Shown here: positions 1 to 56,324 of the stretch, piece by piece | How the letters are laid out: each line of letters starts with the position of its first letter | Position numbering within the stretch: position 1 is the stretch's first letter | NCBI RefSeq assembly: GCF_003967355.1 | Contig: NZ_BIFH01000050.1 | Location: forward strand, 1-56,324 | DNA: 56,324 nt | Direction of reading: 5' to 3' | DNA from: Embleya hyalina | GTDB taxonomy: Bacteria > Actinomycetota > Actinomycetes > Streptomycetales > Streptomycetaceae | The notes under the pieces: model-generated | What the model saw: the letters and a program-made list of their open reading frames with translations, nothing else | Databases searched by the model: none | Told to the model about the DNA's origin: nothing | Translations under genes and position numbers: made by a program

Positions 1-550
1 GCCGCGCACGCTGCCGGAGATCAGCCTGCAGCGCGACCGCGCCATCGCCGCGATGGCGTTCGCGATCGCCGGCCGCTCCTCCGAGGTCTCCGCGCTCACC
101 GTCGCCGGCATCCGCCGGGTCGCCGAGGGCCTGGAGGTGCACGTGCCCTCGGTGAAGGGCCGGCCCGCCCGCGACGTGGCGGTCCACCACGGCGCCAACC
201 CGCTCACCTGCCCGGTGCGTTGCTGGCTCGCCTGGCAGGCCGCCGCCGATCTCGTCGACGGCCCCGCGTTCCGCGCGGTCGACCAGGTCGGCCGCGTCGG
301 CGCCGGCCCCCTGTCCCCGGACGGCTGTCGCATCGCCATCACCCGCGCCGCCGAACGCGCGGGCTTGGACGTGAAGTTGACCGGCCACTCCGCCCGGCGC
401 GGACTGATCACCACCGGCCGCAAGCGCGGCAAGAAGCCCGAGAAGCTGCGCAAACAGTCCGGACACGCCGCGAACTCGCCGGTGTTCTGGTCCTACGTCG
501 AGGAAGGCGAGATGTGGGAGGACGCCGCCACCGAGGACATCGGGCTGTAG
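1..550 (+). CDS. Tyrosine recombinase (integrase), C-terminal part
   Basis: This is the catalytic half of a tyrosine site-specific recombinase. The frame is open from base 2 and, if the molecule is circular, continues the gene that begins at 55711. The joined protein has 387 residues. Numbered in that protein, the visible catalytic residues are Arg230 (AGRSSEV), the HSARR box (His334, Arg337), His360 and the nucleophile Tyr370 (FWSYVEEG). This order and spacing fit the lambda-integrase fold. Such enzymes insert and excise mobile DNA or resolve plasmid multimers. Family membership is clear. Whether this copy integrates the plasmid or only resolves dimers cannot be read from the sequence. Confidence 0.9.
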   Translation, partial: PRTLPEISLQRDRAIAAMAFAIAGRSSEVSALTVAGIRRVAEGLEVHVPSVKGRPARDVAVHHGANPLTCPVRCWLAWQAAADLVDGPAFRAVDQVGRVGAGPLSPDGCRIAITRAAERAGLDVKLTGHSARRGLITTGRKRGKKPEKLRKQSGHAANSPVFWSYVEEGEMWEDAATEDIGL

Positions 551-6830: not shown

Positions 6831-9800
6831 CTACAGGGAGAACCCGTGCCCCGGCGCTGGCCCGGCGGGCGTCGGCGGCCGCCGATGCCGCTGCTGCTGT
6901 TGTTGGCGTTCGCGTTCCGCACGCTGCCGGCGGACCTGCTGCTCGCGGCGTTCGCGGTCGAGGTCGACGCGGAGGGCGTCCTCGGCGGCGGACCGCTCCG
7001 CGGGCATGTCGGCGCGCAGCGCGGCCTCTTCGCGCAGGCCTCGGGCGCGGTCGAGGTCGGCCTGCGCCTCGGTGCGGGCGGTCTCGGCGCCGGCGGCCGC
7101 GCGGGCGACCGCGTGGTGTGCGGTGGTGGTGTCGGCGGCGAGGGCGTCGGCGTGCAGGTGCGGCCAGTCGCGGTGCAGCGTCGCCAGCTCGGCGCGGGCG
7201 TCGATCGTGGCCGGGACCAGGCGGTGGGAGTCGCCGATCTCGCGGGCCCGGTGGCCGTGTTCGATGCCCGCGGCGTGGTCGGCCTGGTCGACCTCGGCGC
7301 GCACGGCCTCGATGCCGGCGGCGACCTGCGCGCGGGTGAGGCCGGCGTGCCACAGCCCGATCCTGCCGAGCCGACCGAGGCGTTCCAGCTCGCGCAACCG
7401 GGCGCGGGCGTCGTCCGCGCGGCGGCGGTGCTCGTCGGCCCACGCCTGGTGGTGGTCGGCGCGGTCGAGGTGGTCGGCGGCGGTCGCGGTCGTGCGGTAC
7501 CGCTCCTCAAGGCGGCGCACGGCCGGACCCTGCCCGGCCTCGGCGGTGCGCAGGCCGGCGTCGGCCGCCAGGACCCGCTCGTGCGCGTCGTGTTCGGTGC
7601 GGGCGGCGCGGGCCTCGTGCTGCTGCGCGTGCGGGATGAGCACGTCGGTGGCGCGGCGGCCGAACGGGCGGGTGCGCATCGCGGCGAGAAGGTCGGCGCG
7701 TTCGCGGTCGGCGGCGAGGCGGGCCAGGGTCGCGCGGGCGCGGGCGAGCCGGTCCACCGCCGGCGCCGGTGCCGGCGCGGCGGGTTCCTGGAGTTCGTGG
7801 GTGGCGAGGGTGTCGGGTCGGTCGTGGGCGATCCGGTCGACGCAGGCGTCGACGGCGCGCACCAGGCGCTCCGCGTCGCCGCGCGGGGCACCGAGGCGGG
7901 CCCGGGTGGTGTCGTCCTCCAGCGGGGTCAGGGCGAGCCAGGTGTCGGTGCGCTCGCGGGCCCGAGTGATGCCCGGGTAGAGGGTGTGGGCGTCGGCGTC
8001 CACGCCGTAGGTGACGGCGCGGTCGCAGGTCAGGCCCTGGGCGGCGGCGATGGTCATCGCGTAGCCGTGGGACAGGTCGCCGCGGGCGATCCGCGCGGGG
8101 GCGATCCACGCCCGGGACAGGACGGGGCCGTCGGCGCCGTCGCGCCGCCACTCGATCCGCACACCCCGCTCGTCCTGGGCCAGGACGATGCCCCGGTAGC
8201 CGTTGAGGACGTCGGGGCCGGCTCCGCGCGACCAGGTGTTGCGGCGCACGCGGACGACGTCGCCCACGGCGAGGACCAGGTCGTCGCCGTCCGCGCGGCG
8301 GTACCGCACGTCGGGCCCGGCCAGTTCACCGCTGGTGCGGGCGTGTTTGCGGGCGAGGGCGTTGAGTTTTTCGGTGTCGGTGTTGCGGGCGGCGAGCATC
8401 AGCACCCGAGCGATGCGTTCGTGCGGGTCGGTGTCGATGTACTCGGTCCTGGCGTCGGCCCACGCGGTGACCATCTCGGCGTGGGCCTGCTCGGGCAGGT
8501 CGGTGGCGTGGATGCGGCTGGCGGCGGCGAGGGTGTGCAGGGCGCCGTGCCGGTCGCCCTCGCGCCACGCGGCCAACGCGTCGCGTTCGGCCGGGTCGCG
8601 TTGGCGGCGGTTCTCGGCGAGCGAGGGGCCTGCGGTGAGGCGGTGAACCTCGGCGAACAGGCCGCCGACGCCGATCGCGCGCAGCTGCAGCGGGTCGCCC
8701 ACGAGGGCGATTTTCGTGTGGGAGCGGGCGGCCTCGACGCACAGGCGGGCGAGCATGCGGTCGTCGGACATCGCGGCCTCGTCGACGACCAGGACGTCGA
8801 CGCCGTCGAACGCGTCACCGGCGTCCATGGCCATCGCCCACTGGGCGAGGTTGCGGGAGGCGATCCCGGCCTCGGAGTAAAGGTTCTCCGAGGCGACTGC
8901 GGCGGTGCTGGCGCCGCGCACGACCAGTCCGCGTGTCTCCCACGCCGCGCGGGCGGCCGTCATGAGCGTGGTCTTGCCCGCGCTGGCGGCGCCGGCGACG
9001 GCGTCGATCGCGTTCCCGCCGACCAACAGCCGGTCCAACGCTTCGACTTGTTCGGGGGAGTACTCCCAACCCTGGGCGACCTCGGCCACGCCCAGGGCGG
9101 CGGCGGCCGCGTCCGGGTCGACCTGCGCAAACCGCTCGCCCAGGCAGCCGGCGATGGTGTGGTCGATGACGGTCTGCTCGGCGGCGAGGATGTCGGCGGT
9201 GGTGTACCGGTCGGCGTGGGTCAGGCGGGTCGTACCCTCGTCGGGCAGGCGCACCGCGGCGTACAGGCCCGGCTCTCGCAGCACCGCGTCGACCAGGTCC
9301 TCGGCCTGGGCGACGTCGACCAGGCCGACGGGGATCGCGTCGATCACCGACGCCAACAGGTCCGCGCGCGTGAACGATTTGCGGTGCGCGGTCAGGCCGT
9401 TCTCCGGGTCCAGGACGATCGCGGCGATCTCGGTCGGCGTCGGCAGGATCGGCGGCGGCGTCCCGTACCCGGCCGGTGCGGGGCCGTCGGGTCCGCGCGG
9501 AATGGCGGCGCGGATCATCTCGTCGACGTCGACCAGGGCGGCGGCGCGCTCGCGCCACTCGGCGCGGACGTCCCGCTCGGCCGTCTCGTCGAGCTTGGCT
9601 TCCCGGCCCCGTGCTGCGGCGAGCTTCTTCTGCGCGGTCGAGGCGTCCTTCCCGGCTTCCTTGACCGCGTCGATCGAGCGGCGGCTGAACGCGGTGCGTA
9701 CCGCCCGGTCGATGCCGACGACCTCCCACGCTCCGGTCGTCGCGTCCCGCTCCCACCGCATGCCGAAGCGTTCGCGGGTGAGGGTGCGCAGGCGGGCCTT

Positions 9801-10745
9801 GACCAGGCTGTCGGCCGCGCGGGCGTGCCGGTACAAGTCGCGGCCGCCGGAGCCGAAGACGCGCCATTTGCCGTCGACGGAGCGGACCATCGACGCCAGG
9901 TTCAGGTGGACGTGCAGGTGCGGATCCCCGGCGGTCGTGCCGATCGGGCGGGCGGAGCGGTGCACCGTCATCCACCCGAGCAGGCCCGAGGACTCAACCC
10001 GGTCCGGGGTGTGGCCGTCGCCGCTGTGGCCGCTGAGGGTGTACCCGACCCACGACTCCACGGCCGTCCCGGCCTCCCATGCGGCCTCCAGGAACGTCCG
10101 CTCCAGCGCGTCGGCCAGGTCGTCGGGGGCGAGGGCCACGGCCGCGCTGAACGACTTCGGCAGGTCCAGGACGAGGTCGGCGCCGCGGTTGCCGATGCGG
10201 ACCCGGGCACCGGCGTGCTCGCGCGCGGTCGCCAGCTCGTCCGCCGGATACAGGTCGTCCAGCGTGGTGCCGGTGGCGTGTGCAGCCGCCGCCGCGATCT
10301 TCTCCAGGTCCTTCACCGGCACCCGGTAGGCATCGCCCTTGCGGCCGTTGATGCCGCGTTCGGCCCGTTCCACCCGCTCGACCAGGCGCGGGTCGCCCAG
10401 CACCTCGACCAGCGGCACGCCCGCCTCGGCGGCGGCCGCCCGGACCGCCTGCAGCAGCGGTCCGGGCGCGAGCTTGCCGGCCGGGTCGACGGCCATCTTC
10501 GGGGCCAGGAGCACGGTGCCGTCGCGGGGGTCCTTGCCCGACATCAGCAGCCGCGCGGCGTCCGGATCGACCTGGCTGCGGGCCTCGATGCCGACCTCGG
10601 CCAAGCCCTTGCCGAACCAGATGAGGTCGCCGGCCGCGCCGGCGGTGCGGTACGCGACGGGGGCGTCCTGGTCGCATCCGCACTCGGCGGTGAGGCGGTA
10701 GTCGACCTGGGCCATGTCGGGGCCGATGGCGGTCACCCATGCCAT
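6831..10745 (-). CDS. traA: MobF-type conjugative relaxase-helicase (TraA)
   Basis: This 1304-residue protein nicks and unwinds plasmid DNA for transfer. The start at MAWVTAIG places a candidate catalytic Tyr at residue 16, as in MobF (TrwC/TraI) relaxases. The three-His metal motif HLHVH lies near residue 275, after LSGHSGDGHT. The second half is a RecD-like superfamily 1 helicase with Walker A GAASAGKTT near 585, Walker B VLVVDEAAM near 650 and a C-terminal GYAMTIAAAQGLT box near 900. The tail is coiled-coil, Arg/Gln-rich and ends in a Pro-rich stretch. Length and order match actinobacterial TraA proteins. Finding it on a plasmid that also has an FtsK-type TraB is notable, because TraB alone suffices for transfer of classical Streptomyces plasmids. 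Confidence 0.93.
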   Translation of the reverse strand: MAWVTAIGPDMAQVDYRLTAECGCDQDAPVAYRTAGAAGDLIWFGKGLAEVGIEARSQVDPDAARLLMSGKDPRDGTVLLAPKMAVDPAGKLAPGPLLQAVRAAAAEAGVPLVEVLGDPRLVERVERAERGINGRKGDAYRVPVKDLEKIAAAAAHATGTTLDDLYPADELATAREHAGARVRIGNRGADLVLDLPKSFSAAVALAPDDLADALERTFLEAAWEAGTAVESWVGYTLSGHSGDGHTPDRVESSGLLGWMTVHRSARPIGTTAGDPHLHVHLNLASMVRSVDGKWRVFGSGGRDLYRHARAADSLVKARLRTLTRERFGMRWERDATTGAWEVVGIDRAVRTAFSRRSIDAVKEAGKDASTAQKKLAAARGREAKLDETAERDVRAEWRERAAALVDVDEMIRAAIPRGPDGPAPAGYGTPPPILPTPTEIAAIVLDPENGLTAHRKSFTRADLLASVIDAIPVGLVDVAQAEDLVDAVLREPGLYAAVRLPDEGTTRLTHADRYTTADILAAEQTVIDHTIAGCLGERFAQVDPDAAAAALGVAEVAQGWEYSPEQVEALDRLLVGGNAIDAVAGAASAGKTTLMTAARAAWETRGLVVRGASTAAVASENLYSEAGIASRNLAQWAMAMDAGDAFDGVDVLVVDEAAMSDDRMLARLCVEAARSHTKIALVGDPLQLRAIGVGGLFAEVHRLTAGPSLAENRRQRDPAERDALAAWREGDRHGALHTLAAASRIHATDLPEQAHAEMVTAWADARTEYIDTDPHERIARVLMLAARNTDTEKLNALARKHARTSGELAGPDVRYRRADGDDLVLAVGDVVRVRRNTWSRGAGPDVLNGYRGIVLAQDERGVRIEWRRDGADGPVLSRAWIAPARIARGDLSHGYAMTIAAAQGLTCDRAVTYGVDADAHTLYPGITRARERTDTWLALTPLEDDTTRARLGAPRGDAERLVRAVDACVDRIAHDRPDTLATHELQEPAAPAPAPAVDRLARARATLARLAADRERADLLAAMRTRPFGRRATDVLIPHAQQHEARAARTEHDAHERVLAADAGLRTAEAGQGPAVRRLEERYRTTATAADHLDRADHHQAWADEHRRRADDARARLRELERLGRLGRIGLWHAGLTRAQVAAGIEAVRAEVDQADHAAGIEHGHRAREIGDSHRLVPATIDARAELATLHRDWPHLHADALAADTTTAHHAVARAAAGAETARTEAQADLDRARGLREEAALRADMPAERSAAEDALRVDLDRERREQQVRRQRAERERQQQQQRHRRPPTPAGPAPGHGFSL

Positions 10746-10936
10746 CCCCACCACCCCCGACCGGTCGCTTCGCCCCGATTCGTCACCCGGCGCGCATTGC
10801 GCATCGCGAGATGCCTTGGTACTTACCGATGTTGATCTTGATGCGCGACGTGGGTCGATCCTATGGTGTTGTCGTCGGCCATGAAAACGTCTGCGGGTTT
10901 TGCCAGTCGGTGTCAGCGGTTCCGCCATGAGGTTTG
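10746..10936. promoter_or_regulatory. Region upstream of traA
   Basis: This intergenic stretch holds an AT-richer patch around 10815-10895. A weak minus-strand promoter-like pair, TTCATG and TAGGAT 16 bases apart, can be read near 10857-10884. The oriT often lies near a relaxase gene, but no clear nic site or matching inverted repeat was found. Confidence 0.3.
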
Positions 10937-11044
10937 TCAGCGGCGGTGCCGTGGCCAGCGGCTGCGGTCGGTGAGCGGTAGCTCGCGGAGGTCGAGGCTG
11001 TAGAAGGCGGCCAGTCGGTCGTCTTTCCGCAACCGGCGGCTCAC
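10937..11044 (-). CDS. Possible 35-residue peptide or gene fragment
   Basis: A GTG-start frame reads MSRRLRKDDRLAAFYSLD and ends TDRSRWPRHRR. The composition looks coding (KDDRLAAFYSLDLRELPL), but the GGAG just upstream is too close to the start to be a good ribosome binding site. It could be the 3' end of a lost gene. It sits between traA and the divergent pentapeptide-repeat gene at 11065. Confidence 0.3.
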   Translation of the reverse strand: MSRRLRKDDRLAAFYSLDLRELPLTDRSRWPRHRR

Positions 11045-11064
11045 TCCGGGTCGTCCTCGACGGC

Positions 11065-13056
11065 ATGACGTCGCCCCTGGCACCTTCGCCCACACCCCCA
11101 CCGTGGCCGCACTGCGCCGAGGGAGCCACCCCGGGCGACCCGGTCGGCTGCCGAGGCATCCACGTCACCGGGCACACACGATGCCTCGCCCACCTCAACA
11201 CCGCCGACCGGGCCACATACCTCGCGACCGTGACTCCCGGCTCCGACGTCGACCACCGCGGTACCACCTTCGACGAACCCCTGCTGATCGAACTTCTCGC
11301 CGCGCTCCGCGACCCGACCACCTACCGGCCGCACCTCGGCAACGCCCGGTTCGACCACGCGACGTTCTCCGCCCACGCCCGCTTCGACAGGGCGACGTTC
11401 TCCGCCGACGCCCGGTTCGACCGCGCGACGTTCTCCGCCTACGCCGGGTTCGGCGGCGCGACGTTCTCCGCCAACGTCCGGTTCGACCACGCGACGTTCT
11501 CCGCCAACGCCCGGTTCGACAGGGCGACCTTCTCCGCCCACGCCCGCTTCGACAGGGCGACGTTCTCCGCCAACGCCGGGTTCGGCAGCGCGACGTTCTC
11601 CACCAACGCCCGGTTCGAACACGCGACGTTCTCCGCCAACGCCGGGTTCGGCGGCGCGACGTTCTCCGCCCACGCCCGGTTCGATAAAGCGACCTTCTCC
11701 GCCGAGGCCGGGTTCGACGGCGCGATATTCGCCGCCGACGCTCGATTCGACAGCGCGGCGTTTTCCGCCCATGCCCGGTTCAACTACGCGACGTTCTTCA
11801 CCCACGCCTGGTTCAACCACGCGACGTTCTCCGCCGACGCCCGGTTCGACCACGTGACGTTCTCCGCCCACGCCCGGTTCGAACACGCGACGTTCTCCAC
11901 CAACGCCGGGTTCGGCTATGTGGTGGTGGGCGGGGATGCCGGTTTCCGGGGTGTCCGGTTCGAGTCTGCGTCGGTGTTGGGGCCGTTGTGGTGTTGGGGG
12001 GTGTTGGATCTGTCGGGAGCCGTGTTCGCCGCCCCGGTGGTGATCGAGGCCGCGGCCGCGAGGATGTGGTGTGTGCGGACGCGGTGGGAGGCGACCGCGA
12101 CGTTGCGCCTGTGGCATGCCACTCTCGACATGAACGGCGCGGTCCTCAACTTCCCCTTGGCCGTCGTCTCGGCCGCCGGCGAGACCGACCCGGTGCGGGT
12201 GGAGACCATCGGCGGTGTCGACGCCGCGCACCTGGTCCTGACCGACACCGACCTCACCACCTGCCGATTCCTCGGCGCGTTCCACCTCGACCAACTCCGT
12301 CTGGAGGGCGACACCCGCTTCGCCCGCACACCCACCGGAACCGACCCACTCCGCGGAGTACCCCTACGCTGGACCGGCCGCCTGGTCCTTGCCGAGGAAC
12401 ACCACTGGCGCGCCCTGCCCTTGCCCGGCCGCCGCCCGCGACAACGCGCCGGCTGGACCCCCGCCCCACCGCACCCCACCGGCTCCGCGCCCACCATCCC
12501 GGGGCCGGCCGCGCTCGCCGCGCTGTACCGCCAACTCCGCAAAACCTTCGAGGACGGCAAGGACGAACCCGGCGCCGCCGACTTCTACATGGGCGAAATG
12601 GAAATGCGCCGCCTCGACCGCCGCCCCGGCCGCTCCCGCGCCGAACGAGGACTCCTCACCGCCTATTGGGCCCTGTCCGGCTACGGCCTGCGCGCCTCCC
12701 GCGCTCTCGCCTGGCTCGGCCTCGCCATGACCACCACCGTTCTCGCCATGATGCTGTGGGGTCTGCCCACCAGCGACCCGAAACCGAAGGTGACAGGCAC
12801 GCTCCCCGCCGCGGGACAAGCGGTGGACCTGACCGTCGATACCGGCGACCCCACCCTCACCGGCACCACCCACGACCACCTGACCGGCATACGCGCCGAG
12901 AAGGCCACCCGCGTCGTCCTCAACTCCGTCGTCTTCCGCTCCAGCGGCCAAAACCTCACCACCGCAGGCACCTACATCGAGATGACGTCCCGCTTCCTCG
13001 AACCCGTCCTCCTCGGCCTCGCAGCCCTCGCCATCCGAGGCCGCGTCAAACGCTGA
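11065..13056 (+). CDS. Membrane-anchored pentapeptide-repeat protein
   Basis: This is a 663-residue protein. Residues 1-85 contain a Cys-rich opening (HCAEGATPGDPVGCRGIHV). From about 90 to 295 there are some 20 ten-residue units of the type ARFDHATFSA, the A-x-F pentapeptide pattern that folds into a right-handed beta helix. A mixed region follows, then a conserved block (LYRQLRKTFEDGKDEPGAAD). Next come a hydrophobic span near 548-567 (LAWLGLAMTTTVLAMMLWG) and a final hydrophobic segment. The same repeat-plus-anchor layout occurs in Streptomyces proteins of unknown role. The DNA repeats are nearly identical, suggesting recent expansion. The function is unknown; DNA mimicry, as in gyrase-protecting Qnr proteins, is only an analogy. 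Confidence 0.85.
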   Translation: MTSPLAPSPTPPPWPHCAEGATPGDPVGCRGIHVTGHTRCLAHLNTADRATYLATVTPGSDVDHRGTTFDEPLLIELLAALRDPTTYRPHLGNARFDHATFSAHARFDRATFSADARFDRATFSAYAGFGGATFSANVRFDHATFSANARFDRATFSAHARFDRATFSANAGFGSATFSTNARFEHATFSANAGFGGATFSAHARFDKATFSAEAGFDGAIFAADARFDSAAFSAHARFNYATFFTHAWFNHATFSADARFDHVTFSAHARFEHATFSTNAGFGYVVVGGDAGFRGVRFESASVLGPLWCWGVLDLSGAVFAAPVVIEAAAARMWCVRTRWEATATLRLWHATLDMNGAVLNFPLAVVSAAGETDPVRVETIGGVDAAHLVLTDTDLTTCRFLGAFHLDQLRLEGDTRFARTPTGTDPLRGVPLRWTGRLVLAEEHHWRALPLPGRRPRQRAGWTPAPPHPTGSAPTIPGPAALAALYRQLRKTFEDGKDEPGAADFYMGEMEMRRLDRRPGRSRAERGLLTAYWALSGYGLRASRALAWLGLAMTTTVLAMMLWGLPTSDPKPKVTGTLPAAGQAVDLTVDTGDPTLTGTTHDHLTGIRAEKATRVVLNSVVFRSSGQNLTTAGTYIEMTSRFLEPVLLGLAALAIRGRVKR

Positions 13057-19055: not shown

Positions 19056-20441
19056 TCACGCTCTGGGCATGTCCCGGAATCGGGAGTAATGCCCCTGGAA
19101 CGCGAGGGTGATCGTGGGGGTGGCGCCGTTGCGGTGTTTGGCCACAATCACATCCGCCTCGCCCGCGCGGGGAGACTCCTTGGTGTAGGCGTCGTCGCGG
19201 TGCAGCAGGAAGACGACGTCCGAGTCCTGTTCGAGCGAACCCGATTCGCGCAGCTCAGCCAGGCGGGGCGTCTTGTCCTCGCGGTTCTCGGCGCCGCGGT
19301 TCAACTGGGACAGGGCCAGAACCGGGATCTCCAACTCCTTCGCCAGGAGTTTGGTGTTGCGGCTGATCTCCGACACCTCGGCCTGGCGGTTCTCTGCGCG
19401 GCCGCCGCTGCCGCCCAAGAGTTGCAGGTAGTCGATGACGATCAGGTCTAGGCCGCCGTGGCGCTGTTTGATCCGGCGGCACTCGGCCTTGATCTGGGTC
19501 AGGGTCGTGTTGGCCCCGTCGGTGATGAACAGGTTGTCCGAGCTGAGCTTGTTCATGGCGGCCGTGACGCGGTCCCAGTCGTGCGGGGTCATCTCAGTGC
19601 CGCGCAGGTGGTGCAATGCCACGCGGGCCTCGGCGGAGATAATGCGCTGCACCAACTCGTCGCGGTGCATCTCCAGGCTGAAGAACGCGACCTTGCGGCC
19701 ACAGGCGAGAGCGGCATGGCGGGCGATATCGATCGCGAACGTTGTTTTCCCCATGCCCGGCCTGCCCGCGATGATGATCATCTGACCGGCCTGGAGGCCG
19801 TTGGTCAGGCCGTCCACGTCGGCGAACCCGGTCATCACGCCCTTGGTGCCGCCCTCGGTCTGGTTGCGCTCGATGTCGGCCAGAACACCGGGCAACAGCG
19901 CGCCCAAAGTGTTGGTGACGTCGCGTTGTTCGCCGCCCTGGCCGACCCTGGCCAGGTCGTCAGCTGCCCGGTCGAGGACCTGGTCGACGTCGTCCGGGGC
20001 GGAGTGCGCCATCTGGACGATGCGGGTGCCGACCTCGGCCAGGCGCTTCAGCGTCGCTTGCTCAACGACGATGCGCGCGTAGTACCCGGCACTGCCAGTC
20101 GTGGGCACGGACGAGATCAGCGTGTGCAGGTACGGCGCTCCGCCGACCCGGTCGATCTCGCCGCGTTTGGTCAGCTCGTCCCGCAGGAGGATCGCGTCCA
20201 CGGGGTTGCCGCGGGCGTACAGGTCAACGATCGCGGCGTACACCAGCACGTGGGCGGGCCGATGGAACTGTTGGCCGCCGCGCCGGCCCAGGACCTCGAC
20301 GACCTCCTCGATGGCGGCCTTGGACAACATCATCGAGCCGAGCACGGATTGCTCGGCCTCGATGTCGTTCGGGGGCATGGGGCCCAGGCCGCCGTCGTCG
20401 GACGCGTCGTGGCCGCCGGAACGGGGAGCGATTACGGTCAT
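19056..20441 (-). CDS. dnaB: DnaB-type replicative helicase
   Basis: This 461-residue protein has the full length of DnaB. It unwinds the fork ahead of the polymerase. The N-terminal domain (NDIEAEQSVLGSMM to LISSVPTTGSAGYYAR) is followed by the RecA-like domain. That domain has Walker A GRPGMGKTT near residue 227, FFSLEM, Walker B LIVIDYLQLLGG near 332, LSQLNRGAE and the arginine-finger region FQGHYSRF. The start MTVIAP at 20441 is chosen over upstream Arg/Pro-rich frame. It lies 83 bases after the iteron-containing rep gene on the same strand. This is the arrangement known for pSLA2, in which a helicase gene follows an initiator gene that contains the origin. Confidence 0.93.
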   Translation of the reverse strand: MTVIAPRSGGHDASDDGGLGPMPPNDIEAEQSVLGSMMLSKAAIEEVVEVLGRRGGQQFHRPAHVLVYAAIVDLYARGNPVDAILLRDELTKRGEIDRVGGAPYLHTLISSVPTTGSAGYYARIVVEQATLKRLAEVGTRIVQMAHSAPDDVDQVLDRAADDLARVGQGGEQRDVTNTLGALLPGVLADIERNQTEGGTKGVMTGFADVDGLTNGLQAGQMIIIAGRPGMGKTTFAIDIARHAALACGRKVAFFSLEMHRDELVQRIISAEARVALHHLRGTEMTPHDWDRVTAAMNKLSSDNLFITDGANTTLTQIKAECRRIKQRHGGLDLIVIDYLQLLGGSGGRAENRQAEVSEISRNTKLLAKELEIPVLALSQLNRGAENREDKTPRLAELRESGSLEQDSDVVFLLHRDDAYTKESPRAGEADVIVAKHRNGATPTITLAFQGHYSRFRDMPRA

Positions 20442-20524
20442 GGTGGAGGACTTCCGATCGCGAGAGGGTCGGGGGAACTCACGGGCGGCCCCCGGCACGG
20501 GGCCGCCCATCTGCGTCTTCGTGC

Positions 20525-28020: not shown

Positions 28021-30267
28021 ATGTCGCACAACATCGAGACCCCGCCCGCAGTGCGGGTGGAGTCCACGGACGTGGAAGTGCCGGCCCCCACGATGGGTGA
28101 CGTCGTGGAGATCGAGCCGCGCCGCCGGGTCGTCGACCCGCTCGACGCGGAGGAGCTGCTGTTCACCAAGCCGGTGACCCTCCTGCCGGCGCAGGCCGGG
28201 CCGGACCGGGCCGACGACGAGGACCAGGAGGAGCCTGCGGACGCGGGTGACGGCGGGGACGACGACGGTTTCGACGACGACGCGGACGCCGGTGAGGACG
28301 AGGGCGACGACGAGGATCCGTCGTGGATGGCGCAGTTCGTCGTGCCGGACGCGGCCCCGGTGCCCGAGTGGCTGGTCAGCTCGGAGGTGCGCAAGGCCCA
28401 GGCCGAGCAGGTCAAGGTGTGGGCGGCGTGGCACGCGAAGTACCACGCCGCGCGGTTGCCGGTGTACGCGGCGCGGATGATCGGGATGGCGCTGCGCGGT
28501 CTGGGCCGGGGCATCGCGTGGACGTGGCGGTATGCCACGGCGGCCGATCACGCCCCGGAGATCCGCGACGCCCGCAAGGCGGGCGACTACCGGATGGTCA
28601 AGACGCTGGTGAAGGACCGTACGAAGACGGCCAAGAAGCGGTTGATCACCACCGGGATCGTGGCCGGCGCCGGAGTCGTCGGGGTGATCGTCACCGCCGC
28701 GCTCGCGGGGCTGATCGCAGTGACCGCGCTGGGCGCGGCGGCGATCACGGCGGCCGTGCTCGGCGGCCGGACGACCCGCGACGGCGAGATCGCGCCGATC
28801 GTGGACACCCCCGCCGTGCCGGTCGAGGTCGAGCTGGGCGCCGACATGCTCCGGGCGGCGATGGTCGACGCGACCATGATCAAGCCGACGCAGGAGATTC
28901 GGCTGGTGGGCCCGATCCGCCCGGACGGCGACGGGTGGGCCGCGACGGTCGATCTGCCCAGCGGTGTCGCCGGTGAGGACGTGGTCGGGAAGGTCACCAA
29001 GTTGGCGGCGGCGCTCAACGTGTCGGCGGCCCGGGTGGTGCTCACCGCGCTCGTCGAGGCGGACGGCGAGGACGTGCCCGAGGGGCGGGTGGAGATCTGG
29101 GTCGCCAAGCGCGACCCCTACGCGAAGACGTACGCCTCGCCGCTGGTCGACCGCATCGAGCCGACCGACATGTGGGGCAAGGTCCCGCTGCTGCGCGGCG
29201 TCAAGGGCCAGTTGATCGAGGTCGAGACGTTCGAGAAGAGCTTCCTCTTCGCGGGCGAGCCGGGCGCGGGCAAGAGCATGACGGCGGCGTCGTTGCTGAT
29301 GGCGATCGGCCTGGACCCGCACGCCGAGTTGTGGCTGGCGCCCGCGAAGCAGGGCGTGGACACGCAGGACTGGGAGCCGATCTGCGCGCGGATGTGCGAG
29401 CCGGACGACCCGGAGTCCTTCCACGAGATGCTGCAGGAGCTGCGGGCGGAGATGGACGACCGCTACGCGCTGATCCGCAGCCGTCGGGCGAAGAAGCTGC
29501 ACCGCTCGATGGGCAAGCCGTTGTTGTTCCTGTGGTGTGACGAACTCGCCTTCTTCATTCAGGACGAGGACTGGGGCAAGAAGATCCACAAGGCGCTCCG
29601 GGACATCCTGGCCCGGGGGCGCGCGTCGGGGATCGTGCCGGTGCTGGCGACGCAGAAGCCCGCCGCGACGGTGATCCCGACCGACCTGCGCGACCTGATC
29701 GCCTACCGGTGGGGCGGGCGCTGCGCGACCTCGCAGGCCTCGGACACGATCCTGGGCCAGGGCATGGCGTCGCTGGGGTACAACGCGGCCCGGATCCGCC
29801 GCCGTCACCGGGGCGTGGGCTGGTGGTTCGCCGAGGAGGCGGCGCCCGAACTCAGCCGCGGGCAGCTGGTGGAGGACGACGAGCAGAAGGCGGTCGCCGA
29901 GCGCGCATACGAACTCCGCCGGGCGGCGGGCACGTTGCCGGAGGCCCCGGAAGAGGTCGCCACGCCGACGCTGGACCTGGTGCGCGCGGCGCTCGCGGAC
30001 GCGGGCGACCCGGTGGGCCTGGCCACGGCCGAGGTGCTGGAGTACCTGGCCAAGGTCGACCCCGACACCTGGGACCTGTCGCACTTCGAGGGCAAGCCGC
30101 TGCGGGCCGCGAACCAGCTCTCCACCCGCCTGGCGGCCGAACTCGCGCCCTTCGGGACCGAGTTGAAGCCGGAGAAGTTCCGCCCCGGAACGGGCGCGGC
30201 GTCGGTGCGCGGCTACCGCCTGGAGGACGTGCTCGCGGTCCTCGACGAGGAACCCGCCGCTGTCTGA
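28021..30267 (+). CDS. traB: FtsK/SpoIIIE-type DNA translocase TraB
   Basis: This 748-residue conjugation motor pumps double-stranded plasmid DNA between hyphae. GGGAG precedes the ATG. Residues 55-100 are a very acidic stretch. A membrane region lies at about 205-249 (LITTGIVAGAGVVGVIVTAA). The AAA-type motor has Walker A GEPGAGKS near 414-421 and Walker B LLFLWCDE near 501-508, followed by ARGRASGIVPVLATQKP as in FtsK. The C-terminal 90 residues form a winged helix (TAEVLEYLAKVDPDTWDLSH ... VRGYRLEDVLAVL). In other TraB proteins this domain recognises 8-bp TRS repeats at the clt locus. No tandem GACCCGGA array, the TRS of pSVH1, was found here, so recognition may differ. Confidence 0.93.
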   Translation: MSHNIETPPAVRVESTDVEVPAPTMGDVVEIEPRRRVVDPLDAEELLFTKPVTLLPAQAGPDRADDEDQEEPADAGDGGDDDGFDDDADAGEDEGDDEDPSWMAQFVVPDAAPVPEWLVSSEVRKAQAEQVKVWAAWHAKYHAARLPVYAARMIGMALRGLGRGIAWTWRYATAADHAPEIRDARKAGDYRMVKTLVKDRTKTAKKRLITTGIVAGAGVVGVIVTAALAGLIAVTALGAAAITAAVLGGRTTRDGEIAPIVDTPAVPVEVELGADMLRAAMVDATMIKPTQEIRLVGPIRPDGDGWAATVDLPSGVAGEDVVGKVTKLAAALNVSAARVVLTALVEADGEDVPEGRVEIWVAKRDPYAKTYASPLVDRIEPTDMWGKVPLLRGVKGQLIEVETFEKSFLFAGEPGAGKSMTAASLLMAIGLDPHAELWLAPAKQGVDTQDWEPICARMCEPDDPESFHEMLQELRAEMDDRYALIRSRRAKKLHRSMGKPLLFLWCDELAFFIQDEDWGKKIHKALRDILARGRASGIVPVLATQKPAATVIPTDLRDLIAYRWGGRCATSQASDTILGQGMASLGYNAARIRRRHRGVGWWFAEEAAPELSRGQLVEDDEQKAVAERAYELRRAAGTLPEAPEEVATPTLDLVRAALADAGDPVGLATAEVLEYLAKVDPDTWDLSHFEGKPLRAANQLSTRLAAELAPFGTELKPEKFRPGTGAASVRGYRLEDVLAVLDEEPAAV

Positions 30268-40569: not shown

Positions 40570-41430
40570 CTAGGCATCGAGAGTCGGATCGTCGCCGAGA
40601 GGGCTGCCGTTCCTGGAAACGGTCAGGCCCAGGGCGTTTGCGATCGAGACGAGATCGTCGGTGAGATCCAGGACTAGGCGCCGGGCATGAGCGGGATGTT
40701 CGGCATTGGCGTCGTGCACCGCTGTGCGGGTCACTGCGGCGGACACCCGGGTGAGGCGTTCCTGAGCGAGCTGCAGGCGCTCGAAGACCGACGAGCGGGG
40801 ATTCGAGGAGGCGGCCCGGGGCGACGGCTCCGGGGCGAACCCGGCCGCCTTGCGCGCGTCCCGCAACGATGCGCCGGTGACCTTCCCGGCTTCCTGGGCC
40901 TTCGCCACGACAGCCTTGGCGGCCTCGATGCCGTGCTGTTCCATCACCGGTGCCAGGATCCGGCCGTGGGACTCGGCGAGCGGCGTGTCAAAAATTTTTG
41001 TCAACGCGAACATGACGGGAGCGGCTTCGAGGATCTGATAGGCGCGTTGTCGGCTGAGCTGGAACCGCTGCTCGACGTACGACTCGAACGTCGCGTGCGT
41101 GACCTTGTACAGGTCGCGGGAACGGATCTCCTGAAGTGCCATCCCGATCTCGACGGTCACCCGCGCCTTCGCCGCCGCCATCGAGTTGCGATGGTTCTCG
41201 GCGGCCGCGTCGATCGCCGCCTCGTAGAAGCGCAGTTGCTCGGCCGGTGTGCCGGTCACTCCGGCGGGATCGACGACCTGGGCCTGACGGGCGCCGGGAA
41301 CCAGCGCGGCCGCGCTCGACGCCGCCGCCGCGATCTGATCGCCGACGAGGATCTGCGTCCTGCTCGGGGCGGGAGCCTGCGGCGTGGGCCGGCGCCGCGT
41401 GGCGCGTGGAGATTTCCCGCCGCCGCTCAC
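40570..41430 (-). CDS. ParB-like partition protein
   Basis: This is a 286-residue protein. GTG 41430 overlaps the parA stop (GTGA), so it is coupled to parA. It has a basic Pro-rich N-terminus, a helical segment (LRFYEAAIDAAAENHRNSMA) and a helix-turn-helix-like FESYVEQRFQLSRQRAYQIL. A C-terminal part with FERLQLAQERLTRVSAAVTR follows. It lacks the ParB/Spo0J N-terminal CTPase motifs, so it is a partner DNA-binding protein of the plasmid (type Ib or HTH) kind rather than canonical ParB. It is expected to bind a centromere site. Candidate sites include the 12-bp array at 43216-43299. Confidence 0.75.
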   Translation of the reverse strand: MSGGGKSPRATRRRPTPQAPAPSRTQILVGDQIAAAASSAAALVPGARQAQVVDPAGVTGTPAEQLRFYEAAIDAAAENHRNSMAAAKARVTVEIGMALQEIRSRDLYKVTHATFESYVEQRFQLSRQRAYQILEAAPVMFALTKIFDTPLAESHGRILAPVMEQHGIEAAKAVVAKAQEAGKVTGASLRDARKAAGFAPEPSPRAASSNPRSSVFERLQLAQERLTRVSAAVTRTAVHDANAEHPAHARRLVLDLTDDLVSIANALGLTVSRNGSPLGDDPTLDA

Positions 41431-42218
41431 GACGTCGCCTTGATCAGACGCTCGGCAAGCTGCCCGAACCACGCACGAGCCTCGCGGCCGCCCTCAGACT
41501 TTTGCGCGACGAGCGGCAGTTGCGACTCGTCCGCGTCCTGGATGGCGGTGCGCACCGGGATGACGGGCTCCCACAACAACGGTCCGAACGTCTCGGGCAG
41601 CGTCTCCAGTTGGCCGACGTGCGCCGGCTTGCGGACGTCGTACCCCGCCACGATCACACCGATCAGGTGCAGCTCCGGGTTCGACAGGTTCGTCCCCTGC
41701 GCCTCCACGAACGCCCGGAACCGCAGCGCGCCCTCGATCGAGTAGTACTCGGGCTCCGTGACGGCCACCGCGTTCGGTCCCGCGGCCAAGGCCAGCTGCG
41801 TCAGGTGGAACAGGCTGGGCGGGCAGTCGAAAAGCGTGAAGTCGTAGCCGTCGTCGGCACCGTCCAAGGCGATCGCGAGGCGGCGGTACGCACCGATGAC
41901 GCCCGCCTCGCTCATCCGGTCCTCCAGGTCCAGAGTGGACGGACACACCGAGATCCGCGACGCGTACTCGGCATCCCACCCGCAAGGCCAGATCGAATCC
42001 GCCACCGCACCGCGGCGGTTCTCCTTGATGGCCTCCGAGACGGTCCGTGCGCCCAGGTCGCCGACAACGCCCAGCCGGCCCGAAGAGTTGCCCTGCGGGT
42101 CGAGGTCCATCACCAGAACCCGCTTGCCCAGGACCGCCAGCGCCTCGGCCACGCGGACCGTCACGGTGGTCTTGCCCACCCCGCCCTTGTTGTTGCCCAT
42201 CGCGACCCGCGTCGCCAT
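41427..42218 (-). CDS. parA: ParA-family partition ATPase
   Basis: This is a 263-residue protein from ATG 42218 with GGGAGCGG upstream. The deviant Walker A KGGVGKTT at residues 11-18 is followed by VMDLDPQGNSSGRLG, FTLFDCPPSL (Walker B) and EPEYYSIEGALRF. ParA forms ATP-dependent dimers on the nucleoid and moves plasmid copies apart. The short length without an N-terminal regulatory domain is type Ib-like. The next gene is the ParB-like partner. Confidence 0.93.
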   Translation of the reverse strand: MATRVAMGNNKGGVGKTTVTVRVAEALAVLGKRVLVMDLDPQGNSSGRLGVVGDLGARTVSEAIKENRRGAVADSIWPCGWDAEYASRISVCPSTLDLEDRMSEAGVIGAYRRLAIALDGADDGYDFTLFDCPPSLFHLTQLALAAGPNAVAVTEPEYYSIEGALRFRAFVEAQGTNLSNPELHLIGVIVAGYDVRKPAHVGQLETLPETFGPLLWEPVIPVRTAIQDADESQLPLVAQKSEGGREARAWFGQLAERLIKATS

Positions 42219-42334
42219 TTCCGCTCCCGTCCGTCTCTGCCGGCCCTCGCGGCCGCCAAGGGGCACCGTAGCGGGACGGAGTGGATCGTCTTGCCCGACA
42301 TGCCCCAAACCGGCGTCCTTCACCGGCAGGAAAC

Positions 42335-42374
42335 CATCGAGGCCCGCCAGAAGCGTGTCCGGCGGGCCTCGATG
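42335..42374 (-). terminator. Terminator after the toxin gene
   Basis: The perfect 14-bp stem CATCGAGGCCCGCC/GGCGGGCCTCGATG lies between the toxin stop at 42447 and the parA start. On the minus strand a short TTT follows the stem. Confidence 0.6.
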
Positions 42375-42446
42375 CGATACGTCACGCCGAGAGACTGTGA
42401 CGAAAATCGGCGCCGCGCTCTCGGCGATCGGCACGTCGGGTCGTGT

Positions 42447-48334: not shown

Positions 48335-49540
48335 TCAAGGCCCACCGCCGAGTTGCAGGTCGCGGCGTTGACCGTTCACCACGGCGATCCGCTGTCCGGG
48401 GGCCGCATGGCCGGCCAGGACGTCGACGTCCTTGTCCGCCAATACGTAGAGCACGACCGATGCCAGCCGGTCCAAAACCGCAGGAACGGCAGTGGGATCC
48501 GGGCAGATCACCGCCCGCACCCGCCCACCGATGGACACCGGCACGCCCCACGCCCACCGTGCGTGTGGCGGGTCGAACACCGCGGGCTCCCCGGTCTGCC
48601 GAGGCGCCTCCTCGGCGACCAGTTGCGCGATCCCCGCCTGATGGAGTCGGCGGCGCCGCACATCCGGTGGTGGAGGCGCCGGAGGAAGACCGCGCCGGTA
48701 GGCCGCGAGCGCCGCAGCCTGCGCGGCCTCCGCCACCTCCGTCGCCGCCACCTGTTCGGCTTCCAGCGCGGCGTACGCGGCGGTCGTCCACCGCACCACC
48801 CGGTCCTGCTCCCGCCACGCCTGGTGAACACCGCTGCGCAGGCGTAGCGGCCGGGTCGTGTCGTCGCGTATCGCGGCCGCGAAGTGCACCAGCGGCAACG
48901 GCTCCACCTGCTCCCAGTGCCCATGTCCGGGACACGGGCCCACCGCGGCCAGGCGGCTGCACTTGTGCCGCTTCGGGCACCATTTCGGCACGAACCGGGC
49001 CAGCCCGTCGACGACCATCAAGGTGCCGTCGTCCGCCCGTTCGACGCGGATCGACGGGGCCTGGCCCAGCCACGGCGGGTTGCGGTCGCTCACCCAGCAC
49101 ACCCCGACGCCGTCCTTGTGCATCCGGCGGCTGCGTTCGTCGACGTCCTCGATGGTGATCGCCGCCAACTGCGCCTCCCACGCCAGTGCGCGTCCTTGCG
49201 TGGGGTGGGTGGACAGGACGTCGGCCCGCCAGCCGTTGCCGGCCACCTCCAGCGCGCACACCCACCCCGCTTCCCGGGCGGCGCCGGCGAGTTCGGCCTT
49301 GAGCAGGTGGTGGGCCAGGCTCTCGCCGTTGTGCGGGCAGTCGGGCGTGACGACGTCGTGGGCGAAGAACCGCAGTTTCTTCGATGACCGCTTCGCGCGC
49401 ACCGCCCCCGTACACCCCGGGCAGGTCAGCGGAGCCCGCGGCCGCACTCGGTGAATGTCCTCCCAGCGCGCGCCGCACCCCAGGTCCGGCAACGTCGCGT
49501 CCACCGGCCCCAGATCGGCATGCACCGCCGTCAACGGCAC
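48335..49540 (-). CDS. CoiA-like nuclease-domain protein
   Basis: This is a 401-residue protein; GGAGGGAGGTGGG precedes GTG 49540. A zinc knuckle (LTCPGCTGAVRAKRSSKKLR) leads to FFAHDVVTPDCPHNGESLAH. Then HLLKAELAGAAREAG, WRADVLSTH and LAWEAQLAAI follow. This is the CoiA competence-protein plan, whose core is a PD-(D/E)xK nuclease fold with catalytic D and E-x-Q. Four more Cys/His (KWCPKRHKC) and an Ala-rich helical tail follow. It probably cuts or processes DNA. It is divergent from the UvrD-like helicase at 49765, and the pair may act together. Confidence 0.8.
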   Translation of the reverse strand: MPLTAVHADLGPVDATLPDLGCGARWEDIHRVRPRAPLTCPGCTGAVRAKRSSKKLRFFAHDVVTPDCPHNGESLAHHLLKAELAGAAREAGWVCALEVAGNGWRADVLSTHPTQGRALAWEAQLAAITIEDVDERSRRMHKDGVGVCWVSDRNPPWLGQAPSIRVERADDGTLMVVDGLARFVPKWCPKRHKCSRLAAVGPCPGHGHWEQVEPLPLVHFAAAIRDDTTRPLRLRSGVHQAWREQDRVVRWTTAAYAALEAEQVAATEVAEAAQAAALAAYRRGLPPAPPPPDVRRRRLHQAGIAQLVAEEAPRQTGEPAVFDPPHARWAWGVPVSIGGRVRAVICPDPTAVPAVLDRLASVVLYVLADKDVDVLAGHAAPGQRIAVVNGQRRDLQLGGGP

Positions 49541-49764
49541 GGAACGCCCACCTCCCTCCACACGGCAGGGCACCCGCCCGGATTCTCACCCGGCCCCTGT
49601 ACGCACCAACCCCACCGACCGGAAGAGACCGCCCCACCACCACATTCGGGCCGGCCTCGTTCCGAACCGGACCGAATGCCTCAAACCCCGGACGTACCGG
49701 GCCCGGGGCTGCAACCGTTCGGGTGCGCCTTCGAGGCGCACCCACCCCATCGAGGAGTGTGACC

Positions 49765-51306
49765 ATGCCGAAGCCCACGGCCGAACAGGCAGCCGCCGTC
49801 GACGCGTTCAGCACCCGAGACGACCTCGTCCTGCAGGCCGGCGCCGGAACGGGTAAGACGACCACGCTCACCATGCTCGCCGCCGGCGACCGGCGGCCCG
49901 GCAAATACCTGGCGTTCAACCGCTCGATCGCGCACGCCGCCAAGCGCGTGTTCCCGCAACAGGTCGACTGCCGCACCGCGCACTCCCTGGCGTTCGCCGG
50001 CGTCGGCCACCGCTACGCCCACCGCCTCGGCGGCGCCCGTGTCCCCAGCTGGAAGATCGGCGAAAGGCTCGGCATGCGGCCGATGAGCATCGCCATGGGC
50101 GCCCGCAAGGTGACCCACAAGGCGGTCTCCTACACCGCGCTGCAGACCGTCATCCGGTTCTGCCAGTCCAGCGCGGACGAGATCGGCCGCCACCACGTCC
50201 CCCACCTGCGCGGCCTCGACCCCGACTGGCACCACCACCTCGTCGACCTCGCCCTGCCGTACGCGCACAGGGCCTGGGCCGATGTCCAGAACCCCGAGAG
50301 CGACATCGTGAAGTTCGGCCACGACCACTACCTGAAGATCTGGGCACTGCAACGCCCCCACATCCCGGGCGACTTCCTCCTCCTCGACGAGGCCCAGGAC
50401 ACCAACCCCGTCGTGGAGCGCGTCTTCCTCGATCAACGCCACCACGCCCAGCTCGTCATGGTCGGCGACTCCGCCCAGGCCATCTACGGCTGGCGCGGCG
50501 CCCGCGACGTCATGACCGACTTCGACGGCAACCAGCTCACCCTGTCCCGGTCCTTCCGTTTCGGCCCGGCCCTGGCCACCGAAGCCAACCGCTGGCTGCG
50601 GATCGTCGACGCGCCCCTGCGGCTGACCGGAACCACCGCGCTCAACACCGAACTCGGACCGGTGGACAGGCCCGACGCCATCCTGTGCCGGACCAACGCG
50701 GGCTCCATCCTCGAAATCATGCAACTGCTCGAACAGGGCACGCGGGTCGGTCTCGTCGGCGGCGGCGGGCCGCTCAAGTCCCTCGCCCTCGCCGCCCAGG
50801 ACCTCAAGGCCGGCCGACGCACCAGCCACCACGAACTGTTCCTGTTCGAGTCCTGGGGCGAGGTCCAGGAGTACGCCGAGGAAGACCCCGGCGGCCGCGA
50901 CCTCAAACCCTTCGTCGACCTCATCGACGACGTCGGCCCCGAAGCCGTCCTCGCCGCCGTCGACGCGCTCACCGACGAGAAGCGGGCCGACATCCTCGTG
51001 TCCACGGCCCACAAGGCCAAGGGCCGCGAATGGGACACCGTCCGCATCGGCGACGACTTCGCCGACTGCGAACCCGAAGACATCGAAGCCGACGACGGCC
51101 ACGCCTACCCCGGCTACATCCCCGACACCGAAGCCCGCCTCGCGTACGTCGCCGTCACCCGCGCCCGCCACCGACTCGACCTCGGCGGCCTGAACTGGAT
51201 CAACCAACACCCCGACGGCCAACCCGACACCGGCGAAGCAGGCCCCGGCCACCAACCACCGGACGACGCATCCCCCTGGGACTCTCTCGGACACCCACCC
51301 GCCTGA
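49765..51306 (+). CDS. UvrD/PcrA-like DNA helicase
   Basis: This is a 513-residue superfamily 1A helicase with GAGGAG before the ATG. Q-motif TAEQAAAV, Walker A AGAGTGKTT (residues 25-33), motif Ia FNRSIAHAAK, Walker B LLLDEAQD near 206-213 and motif III MVGDSAQAIYGWRGA are all visible. Motif IV (SFRFGPAL), motif V (STAHKAKGREWDTVRI) and motif VI (YVAVTRARHRL) complete the set. It is shorter than PcrA (about 720 residues) because insertion subdomains are reduced. Such short helicases occur in mobile elements and defence systems with partner nucleases. Here the divergent neighbour is a CoiA-like nuclease. Confidence 0.9.
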   Translation: MPKPTAEQAAAVDAFSTRDDLVLQAGAGTGKTTTLTMLAAGDRRPGKYLAFNRSIAHAAKRVFPQQVDCRTAHSLAFAGVGHRYAHRLGGARVPSWKIGERLGMRPMSIAMGARKVTHKAVSYTALQTVIRFCQSSADEIGRHHVPHLRGLDPDWHHHLVDLALPYAHRAWADVQNPESDIVKFGHDHYLKIWALQRPHIPGDFLLLDEAQDTNPVVERVFLDQRHHAQLVMVGDSAQAIYGWRGARDVMTDFDGNQLTLSRSFRFGPALATEANRWLRIVDAPLRLTGTTALNTELGPVDRPDAILCRTNAGSILEIMQLLEQGTRVGLVGGGGPLKSLALAAQDLKAGRRTSHHELFLFESWGEVQEYAEEDPGGRDLKPFVDLIDDVGPEAVLAAVDALTDEKRADILVSTAHKAKGREWDTVRIGDDFADCEPEDIEADDGHAYPGYIPDTEARLAYVAVTRARHRLDLGGLNWINQHPDGQPDTGEAGPGHQPPDDASPWDSLGHPPA

Positions 51307-53506: not shown

Positions 53507-53570
53507 GTTCCGGAGGCACGTGCTTCCGCTTCCGGCCAACCGCCTCGGATAAGACCCGGATATCCGAGGC
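53507..53570. repeat. 64-bp element, copy A
   Basis: GTTCCGGAGGCACGTGCTTC, CGCTT, a 6-base spacer, AACC and the dyad GCCTCGGATA-N9-TATCCGAGGC. Copy B is at 55367-55429 in the same orientation. The two copies flank the sigma-factor operon. Confidence 0.65.
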
Positions 53571-53697
53571 GATGGCGAGCCCGGTCAGGGGCGGGGCAAA
53601 TAGCCAGGAGCACCCGGCTGTCGGGCGACGACGGTCCTTAGTCCGTGCCCCGAGCGCGGCTCCCGACACGGTCGGTGTCGAGAACCGCGCTGAGGGG

Positions 53698-55304: not shown

Positions 55305-55415
55305 TCATTCCATCAGTGGGCACCGGCCCGGGGTTTTGGGACACGAAGAACCCGCCTTTTTGACGGGTTCCGGAGGCACGTGCTTCCGCTTCTCGCTAAC
55401 CGCCTCGGATAACAT
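55305..55415 (-). CDS. Possible 36-residue peptide in element B
   Basis: ATG 55415 opens a frame reading MLSEAVSEKRKHVPPEPVKK and ending TPGRCPLME. Copy A of the element encodes the similar VLSEAVGRKRKHVPPERGKT in the same frame but without a start codon. The similarity may come from DNA-level conservation rather than a real peptide. No good ribosome binding site is visible. Confidence 0.25.
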   Translation of the reverse strand: MLSEAVSEKRKHVPPEPVKKAGSSCPKTPGRCPLME

Positions 55416-55429
55416 GCCATATCCGAGGC
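55367..55429. repeat. 64-bp element, copy B
   Basis: The first 27 bases are identical to copy A. The dyad GCCTCGGATA-N8-TATCCGAGGC is also kept, with different spacer bases. It lies between the sigma operon and the integrase operon. Confidence 0.65.
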
Positions 55430-55480
55430 AGTTATGGGCTCGGACGATCACCGATCCGGTCCGGGAGGGGAACCCGCCGC

Positions 55481-55714
55481 ATGCCCACACCCACACCCGA
55501 GGAACGACGCGCCGTACTGCGCGACGCGATCGAGACCGCCCGCAGCACCCGCGCCGCCGCCCGCTGGCGTTCCGCCCGCGACACCGGGTCGTCGATCGAG
55601 CACCTGCGCGGGGAACTCGACGACCTCGACCGCGTGCTGCAGCACGTGCTCGCGGCCGCCGAACCGTTCGCCGACCTCGACCTGGACGTGCCGCAGCCGG
55701 ACCGGCGCCGGTGA
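55481..55714 (+). CDS. Small protein coupled to the integrase
   Basis: GGAGGGGA precedes ATG 55481. The 77-residue protein is a helical, charged coiled coil (MPTPTPEERRAVLRDAIETA, LRGELDDLDRVLQHVLAAAE) with an Asp/Pro tail. Its stop overlaps the integrase start (GTGA). The position fits an excisionase or regulator of recombination, but there is no helix-turn-helix typical of Xis, so the role is open. Confidence 0.65.
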   Translation: MPTPTPEERRAVLRDAIETARSTRAAARWRSARDTGSSIEHLRGELDDLDRVLQHVLAAAEPFADLDLDVPQPDRRR

Positions 55715-56324
55715 ACGCGACGGGCGGCGCCGCCCGCGACACCTCGCACCCCCGCCTCGACCTCGAGCGCGCGGCCGCGCCGCGGGCGGGCTCCGACGCG
55801 GAACTCGTGGCCGAGCTGGAGCCGTTCGACGCGCCGGCCCCCGGCGCGATCGCCGTGCCGGACGCGTCCGCGGCCGTGCTCGCCGCCCTGGACGAGGCCG
55901 CCTACGAGCACTTGGACGACATCCGCCCCACCAAGACGGTCACCGGCTACGCCCGGGACTGGCAGCTGTGGGGCGAGTACCACGCCTGGCTCGCCGAACG
56001 CACCGGCCACGCCCTGCCCTCGACGACGGTCACCCCCGGCACGCTGGTCGGGTTCGTCCGCTGGCTCGACCAGGTCGCGTTCGCCGCGCCCAACAGCATC
56101 GAGCGGCGGATCACCGGGGTCACGGTCACCGCCCGCCGGCTCGGCGCCGAGGTCCCCAAAGCCGCCACCCTCGCCGCCCGCCAGGCGCTCAAGCCGTTGC
56201 TGCTCGACCCGCAGCGCCTCGCCCGGGGCCGGGGCAGGGCCGTCGCGGCCACCCCCGCGCACCTGCGCCAGATGGCCACCGCCGACCCGGTGATACAGCC
56301 CCGGCCCGACGCCAAGCGCCGCAA
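55711..56324 (+). CDS. Tyrosine recombinase (integrase), N-terminal part
   Basis: A GTG coupled to the gene before opens this frame, which is still open at the end of the window two bases into a codon. The part seen (204 residues) holds an acidic N-terminus and a core-binding helical domain (TVTGYARDWQLWGEYHAWLA, LVGFVRWLDQVAFAAPNSIE). A linker with RMATADPVIQPRPDA-type sequence follows. Added to bases 1-550, which are in the matching phase, it gives a complete 387-residue recombinase. It would act on an att or resolution site that is not identified; the repeated elements nearby are candidates. Confidence 0.9.
   Translation, partial: MNATGGAARDTSHPRLDLERAAAPRAGSDAELVAELEPFDAPAPGAIAVPDASAAVLAALDEAAYEHLDDIRPTKTVTGYARDWQLWGEYHAWLAERTGHALPSTTVTPGTLVGFVRWLDQVAFAAPNSIERRITGVTVTARRLGAEVPKAATLAARQALKPLLLDPQRLARGRGRAVAATPAHLRQMATADPVIQPRPDAKRR

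Follow-up and report, generated by a model that had tools for sequence, protein, structure and literature searches.

A probable circular plasmid of a Streptomyces-family actinobacterium, opened within its tyrosine recombinase gene, and a candidate lox-like site upstream of that gene

Cre acts at loxP on P1 to resolve multimers. In PMC4957104, loxP, nox and pox are described as sites with 13-bp arms and an 8-bp spacer near the recombinase gene, and Nigri/nox and Panto/pox were found by the same kind of search as used here, then tested for recombination. The window, as we call the whole stretch of 56,324 bases analyzed here, shares with Cre/loxP, Nigri/nox and Panto/pox a phage- or plasmid-borne tyrosine recombinase with one nearby site that has inverted arms and an 8-bp spacer. 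It differs in the architecture of the site, which is 12-8-12 instead of 13-8-13, and the present system is known from sequence alone. AICEs combine a tyrosine recombinase with an FtsK-type transfer ATPase (PMC3218068), as does the window; unlike AICEs as described there, the window is without a chromosomal flank. Over the C-terminal half, the recombinase shows 40.8% identity to the integrase of Streptomyces phage ZL12, which was the only phage matched when this half was compared by protein to 50,697 phage records (two records of one phage). The right end of the contig, compared by DNA to the phage records, gave no match.

Three circular Streptomyces plasmids, NZ_CP108626.1 (33,551 bp), LN997845.1 (76,089 bp) and NZ_CP108117.1 (84,297 bp), carry a recombinase of the same subfamily with C-half identities of 76%, 61% and 51%, respectively. 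All three have the 12-8-12 site in common with the window, and NZ_CP108626.1 likewise has mobF, ParA and FtsK genes. Among the matches listed for Streptomyces plasmid dimer or multimer resolution, the titles and abstract openings do not describe this site, nor is it described among the matches listed for Cre-like or novel Cre-type recombinases and lox-like searches. No paper on an Embleya plasmid was found in the literature.

The split recombinase gene

The gene of the tyrosine recombinase is distributed over the two ends of the window. Its N half (55711..56324, forward strand) begins with a GTG start and comprises 204 codons plus two bases of codon 205, whereas the C half (1..550, forward strand) supplies the last base of codon 205 and the 182 codons of the catalytic domain, ending with the stop codon TAG at 548-550. 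A previous, sequence-only reading had proposed that the frame joins across the ends, and this is what we found, with AA at bases 56323-56324 and G at base 1. No stop interrupts the frame between the GTG at 55711 and the right end, or between base 2 and the TAG, which gives the total of 387 residues (204+1+182) counted before. The catalytic boxes occur in the order claimed: the C half has GRSSE, HSAR, SGH and WSY in sequence, which we take to be the Arg, HxxR, His and Tyr boxes. The R...HxxR...H/W...Y catalytic set is complete and ordered, and its motifs fall in the same alignment columns in the relatives. From the designation as an integrase we retain the family name, together with the tyrosine recombinase motifs; no sign of integration was seen here. 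Matches of the C half were obtained with PF00589 (E 1.2e-4, 22.3 bits, under the Pfam cut-off of 27.1 bits) and with the PHROG 216 integrase (1.5e-9), and the N half matched no family in Pfam or PHROG. Solved structures, searched by sequence with the recombinase alignment, gave no match at E 0.01, and the structure model of one relative (L014) was too poor for use, with a mean pLDDT of 45.5 and residues 155-368 below 50. Its length and the alignment suggest that the recombinase is too short to accommodate an arm-binding domain ahead of the core-binding domain, so that a simple two-arm site should suffice for it. The gene is preceded by a small ORF on the forward strand (55434..55714, alternative start 55481), which overlaps the recombinase start by 4 bases and has no match in Pfam or PHROG. 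In ten of the named relatives, too, an annotated gene overlaps or directly adjoins the start of the recombinase.

The join was then compared to relatives by tblastn with the two halves kept apart. Both were found in all 21 named loci (7 genome contigs and 14 plasmid records, two of the loci being nearly identical), and in 20 of them they form one open reading frame; in the broken exception, L015, the N half is matched only in part and in another frame. Zero missing bases at the join predict a spacing of 37 codons from RGRG to LPE. In the 20 loci with both motifs this spacing is 37 in 17 cases, 38 in two and 39 in one. The raw tblastn gap between the halves was 12 bases, as predicted, in 11 loci and 15 bases in six, for which the fixed motifs give 37 codons too; gaps of 36, 39 and 54 were obtained in three loci where the N match ends early. 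Among 27 further genome loci, seven matched the motif expression (37 codons in five, 25 in one and 39 in one) and 20 did not. Within the variation of the family, the contig ends would thus abut with nothing lost or repeated. The earlier argument that an in-phase join is unlikely to arise by chance is strengthened, as the join now fits the relatives with 0 bases missing and is no longer judged by phase alone. In the plasmid records, where the gene is mostly annotated as hypothetical, the C half matched 393 records and the N half 45. Many of the best-matching records are common to both halves, which adjoin there, and both circular and linear records carry relatives of the recombinase.

Contig ends, gene content and the putative ring

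The window is one complete contig (C50, 1-56324 of 56324) of a 12.05-Mb assembly in 78 contigs. The end-overlap check that had been suggested was run on the C50 ends and revealed neither an exact overlap, for lengths of 5-399 bases, nor an approximate one. The classic sign of a circle in short-read assemblies is hence absent, as it would also be after trimming. The terminal 400 bases of C50 have no 21-mer in common with any of 137 other stretches of the genome, among them the heads of 77 other contigs and the tails of 66 (11 tails were left out, and 14 stretches are wholly N). Among the other contig ends, 27 pairs have 31-mers in common and 105 more pairs were attributed to N. Whole-genome DNA searches with the C50 ends, for which the best 40 candidates were scored per search, gave no other match including the last 138 or the first 45 bases.

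These data bear on the possibility that the contig broke at a repeat, for example an insertion sequence, inside the recombinase gene, in which case the molecule would still be a circle, one larger than 56,324 bases with an interrupted gene. Some insertion sequences leave no target duplication, and the two halves would then abut exactly. Contigs that stop at a repeat, however, usually carry part of that repeat, whereas at C50 the alignment to relatives reaches the last base of either end or stops only a few codons short of it, and no further copy of the terminal bases turned up in the genome. We consider an interruption of this kind improbable.

The N half was found once in the 12-Mb genome, at C50. 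For the C half, paralogous DNA stretches from base 290 onward were detected on C34 (86%) and C44 (80%); the genome contains two truncated paralogues and one distant one, none with an N-half match. The truncated paralogues, L221 on C34 and L226 on C44, reach 87% and 66% over the matched part and are perhaps remnants of related elements. Their presence, as well as the membership of the gene in the integrase superfamily, could be taken to point to an element inserted in the chromosome, or to halves from two different copies of the gene. The contig, however, carries no chromosomal flank and the N half is single-copy; halves of separate copies would have to be broken at complementary bases. Integrated elements are moreover split at the attachment site and not within the integrase gene. 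Both versions of this explanation appear highly improbable.

Contigs C13 to C77 are listed in falling size order except for C50, C57 and two small swaps, and C78, the last in the list, departs from the order as well. C50 occupies the slot of a contig of 106,336-112,452 bases, corresponding to 1.89-2.00 laps of the ring, which hints weakly at a two-lap contig trimmed to one lap. The argument is only weak because the size order is also broken by C57, for which nothing here indicates a circle. C57 and C58 have identical first 400 and last 400 bases, yet are 53,390 and 71,607 bases long; they are possibly two versions of one region, and the equality of their ends indicates that contigs in this assembly were also shortened for other reasons.

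The gene content was assessed with 57 translations from the window compared to Pfam, ten of them also to NCBIfam. It includes a MobF/TrwC relaxase-helicase (6831..11321, reverse strand), a DnaB-type helicase (19056..20510, reverse strand), an FtsK/SpoIIIE-type ATPase as a candidate for transfer (28021..30267, forward strand) and a ParA-type partition ATPase (41427..42434, reverse strand). Further families are a pentapeptide-repeat protein, a GntR-UTRA regulator, a NUDIX protein, a UvrD-like helicase, a CoiA-like protein, a sigma factor and a general GNAT acetyltransferase. A GntR regulator is a trait shared with AICEs. Among the 57 translations, no replication initiator was recognized, no RepAM or Prim-Pol family was present and no drug-resistance families were seen; we know of no Pfam model for RepSA. 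ARAGORN found no whole tRNA gene in the window, a search that is blind to the 3' fragments carried by attachment sites. By megablast against 72,556 plasmid records, no record covered more than 6% of either of two 25-kb queries (positions 25001-31324 left out). A stretch in the region of the NUDIX gene (33624-34297) resembles many Streptomyces plasmids among the matches listed, with a DNA identity of 79-83%. The CoiA-like gene (48335-49573, a weak match) lies next to the UvrD-like helicase gene on the opposite strand (49384-51306), and these neighbors could be a defence or DNA-processing pair. The relaxase, ParA, the FtsK-type ATPase and the DnaB helicase would fit a plasmid, with genes for maintenance and transfer and without chromosomal genes.

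Based on the whole contig, the gene halves at both ends, the zero-gap fit to the relatives and the plasmid gene set, we infer with a probability of roughly 0.9 that the window is the entire 56,324-base circular plasmid of a Streptomyces-family actinobacterium. The assembler would have linearized the ring at an arbitrary point within the plasmid-borne recombinase gene; the cut point of the ring is ordinary. The proposal of a complete circular plasmid cut inside this gene, made originally from the continuity of the frame, is now supported by the relatives, the single-copy N half and the plasmid gene content. A finished ring would provide a complete plasmid without a close relative at the sensitivity of megablast in the plasmid records and with the two queries given above.

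The 12-8-12 site upstream of the recombinase

About 280 bases upstream of the recombinase, directly before the small ORF that overlaps its start, we found a candidate lox-like site (55400..55431) with 12-base arms and the 8-base spacer ACATGCCA. The full sequence is CCGCCTCGGATA-ACATGCCA-TATCCGAGGCAG, and the arms mirror each other at 11 of 12 positions. The inner 10-base arms with a gap of 4-10 bases are absent elsewhere in the 12-Mb genome. A second copy of the palindrome lies at 53540..53572; it has the left flank in common and a spacer of 9 bases, and is probably decayed or regulatory. Both copies are in direct order, each preceded by the common stretch TTCCGGAGGCACGTGCTTCCGCTT, and the 1.9-kb segment between them includes the sigma-factor gene. 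The window hence has one copy with an 8-bp and one with a 9-bp spacer, and there is one copy in the whole 33.5-kb NZ_CP108626.1.

Accepting at least 20 of 24 arm bases and spacers of 5-11, the site was detected upstream of the recombinase, usually of its operon, in 20 of the 21 named relatives, with a best spacer of 8 in all 20; in seven of them it appeared only once longer upstream sequence was included. Shuffled controls (2.43 Mb) gave 0 sites at a score of 20 of 24. The site was also present in two further genomes, G317 and G379. In this first clade the arms mirror at 8-12 of 12 positions around an asymmetric 8-bp spacer. Several pairs of loci, such as L014 with L016 or L204, match over about 45 bases around the site, and the match extends on neither side. 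No first-clade site was found in L015, L211, L213 (1.9 kb upstream covered), L214, L215, L217, L218, L219 and L222-L226, and L221 gave only scores of 19. Four of these loci (L214, L215, L217 and L219) are members of a second clade with a site of its own, and L218, L221, L222, L225 and L226 have no N-half match.

The association of site and recombinase was also examined across genomes. The exact arm pattern occurs in three of 394 family genomes, two of which have the recombinase, one being the window and the other coinciding with the named relative L020. In the third (G078, locus L227, near 7450, in a chromosome-size contig), the same arms with the spacer TGGGATGT precede a gene that, judged by eye, looks like a TetR regulator, and the surrounding 16 kb contain no recombinase match. 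When the spacer was included, the pattern was found in nine of 392 Streptomyces genomes, and its reversed control in 0. The recombinase (E at most 1e-30, best 8 candidates scored per genome) is present in 23 of the 392 and in eight of the nine with the pattern (p 3e-10). As three of these eight coincide with named relatives used to define the pattern, the count without them is five of six (p 1e-6). In all eight, the recombinase is on the same contig, 0.6-5.1 kb downstream of the site and in the same orientation. In one genome, G534, a site with one mismatch is accompanied by no recombinase that reaches the cut-off; G360, G484 and G079 show neither the first- nor the second-clade site pattern.

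The second clade and possible roles of the site

The second clade comprises 14 genomes. Their recombinases match the C half from its residue 9 or 10 on, and several lie far inside chromosome-size contigs. A site with other arms was found in all 14, at 0.8-2.0 kb upstream of the recombinase in 13 and at 126.7 kb from it in G372, by a pattern that was drawn from three of the 14 and fixes the spacer at 8. The spacer is ACATGCCA, AGATGCCA or one base different from these. The left arm ends with CTCGATA in 11 of the 14 and the right arm starts with TATCGCGGG in eight. Mirror symmetry between the arms extends to only 6-10 of 12 positions, and an uninterrupted stretch of 5 on the inner side is seen in 10 of 14 loci. 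Flanks match in 13 of 91 pairs on the left and in 60 of 91 on the right, the left flank being the more varied.

The candidate site is probably where the recombinase binds and would probably be its recombination site, in the manner of lox. The recombinase would bind the 12-8-12 site that precedes its operon and would recombine two such copies, and the most likely purpose would be the resolution of plasmid multimers, as for Cre at loxP on P1; for this complete scheme, binding, recombination and purpose together, we see the chances as evenly balanced. Five relatives of the recombinase are on linear plasmid records and the second clade is partly chromosomal, settings in which resolving multimers is not an evident requirement; together with the weak symmetry in that clade, this argues against multimer resolution as the sole role.

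Alternatively, the site may not serve recombination but be an operator, bound either by a regulator that controls the operon or by the recombinase itself in autoregulation. The position of the site is that of the promoter region: in those relatives for which the distance was read off, 40 to 125 bases separate it from the first annotated gene downstream. In nine of the 14 second-clade loci the site is followed by a TACAAT box and, shortly after, an ATG. Regulation would also account for the exact palindrome with another spacer before the apparent TetR gene of L227, and for the fact that there is usually one copy of the site per locus. On the other hand, no protein family besides the recombinase occurs near all 22 site-bearing loci, the best being found in 14, although these loci were chosen for having the recombinase, their flank lengths vary and L039 was omitted as a near copy of L038. 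Furthermore, the arms differ between the two recombinase clades. An operator function is a credible but doubtful explanation.

The second clade might also be viewed as the integrated form of an element for which the site is the attP of the integrase. Its left flank varies between genomes whereas the right flank falls into few families, and in most loci the two arms agree poorly outside their inner 4-5 bases, as would be expected if the left one were a host half-site. An integrated element should nevertheless leave two copies, and 13 of 14 genomes have one at up to one mismatch, a search that a half-site with a changed arm would escape; the second copy in the 14th genome, G372, has a different spacer. 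We regard an attP as unlikely.

Taking the recombination reading further, the pieces may form a lox-like system on circular and linear plasmids of Streptomyces and its kin, with a partly chromosomal sister clade that uses a variant site, a proposal we hold slightly below even, its odds being lowered by the poorly mirroring arms of the second clade. With similar reserve, the system can be outlined as a tyrosine recombinase of roughly 370-400 residues with a 12-8-12 site heading its operon. The sister clade, also put forward tentatively, would have a site close upstream of the gene, in which the spacer core is the same and the arms are different and less symmetric. If the site is the recombinase's own, enzyme and site would make up a recombination pair for high-GC actinobacteria that lends itself to direct testing, and a gene family mostly called hypothetical in plasmid records would gain a role.
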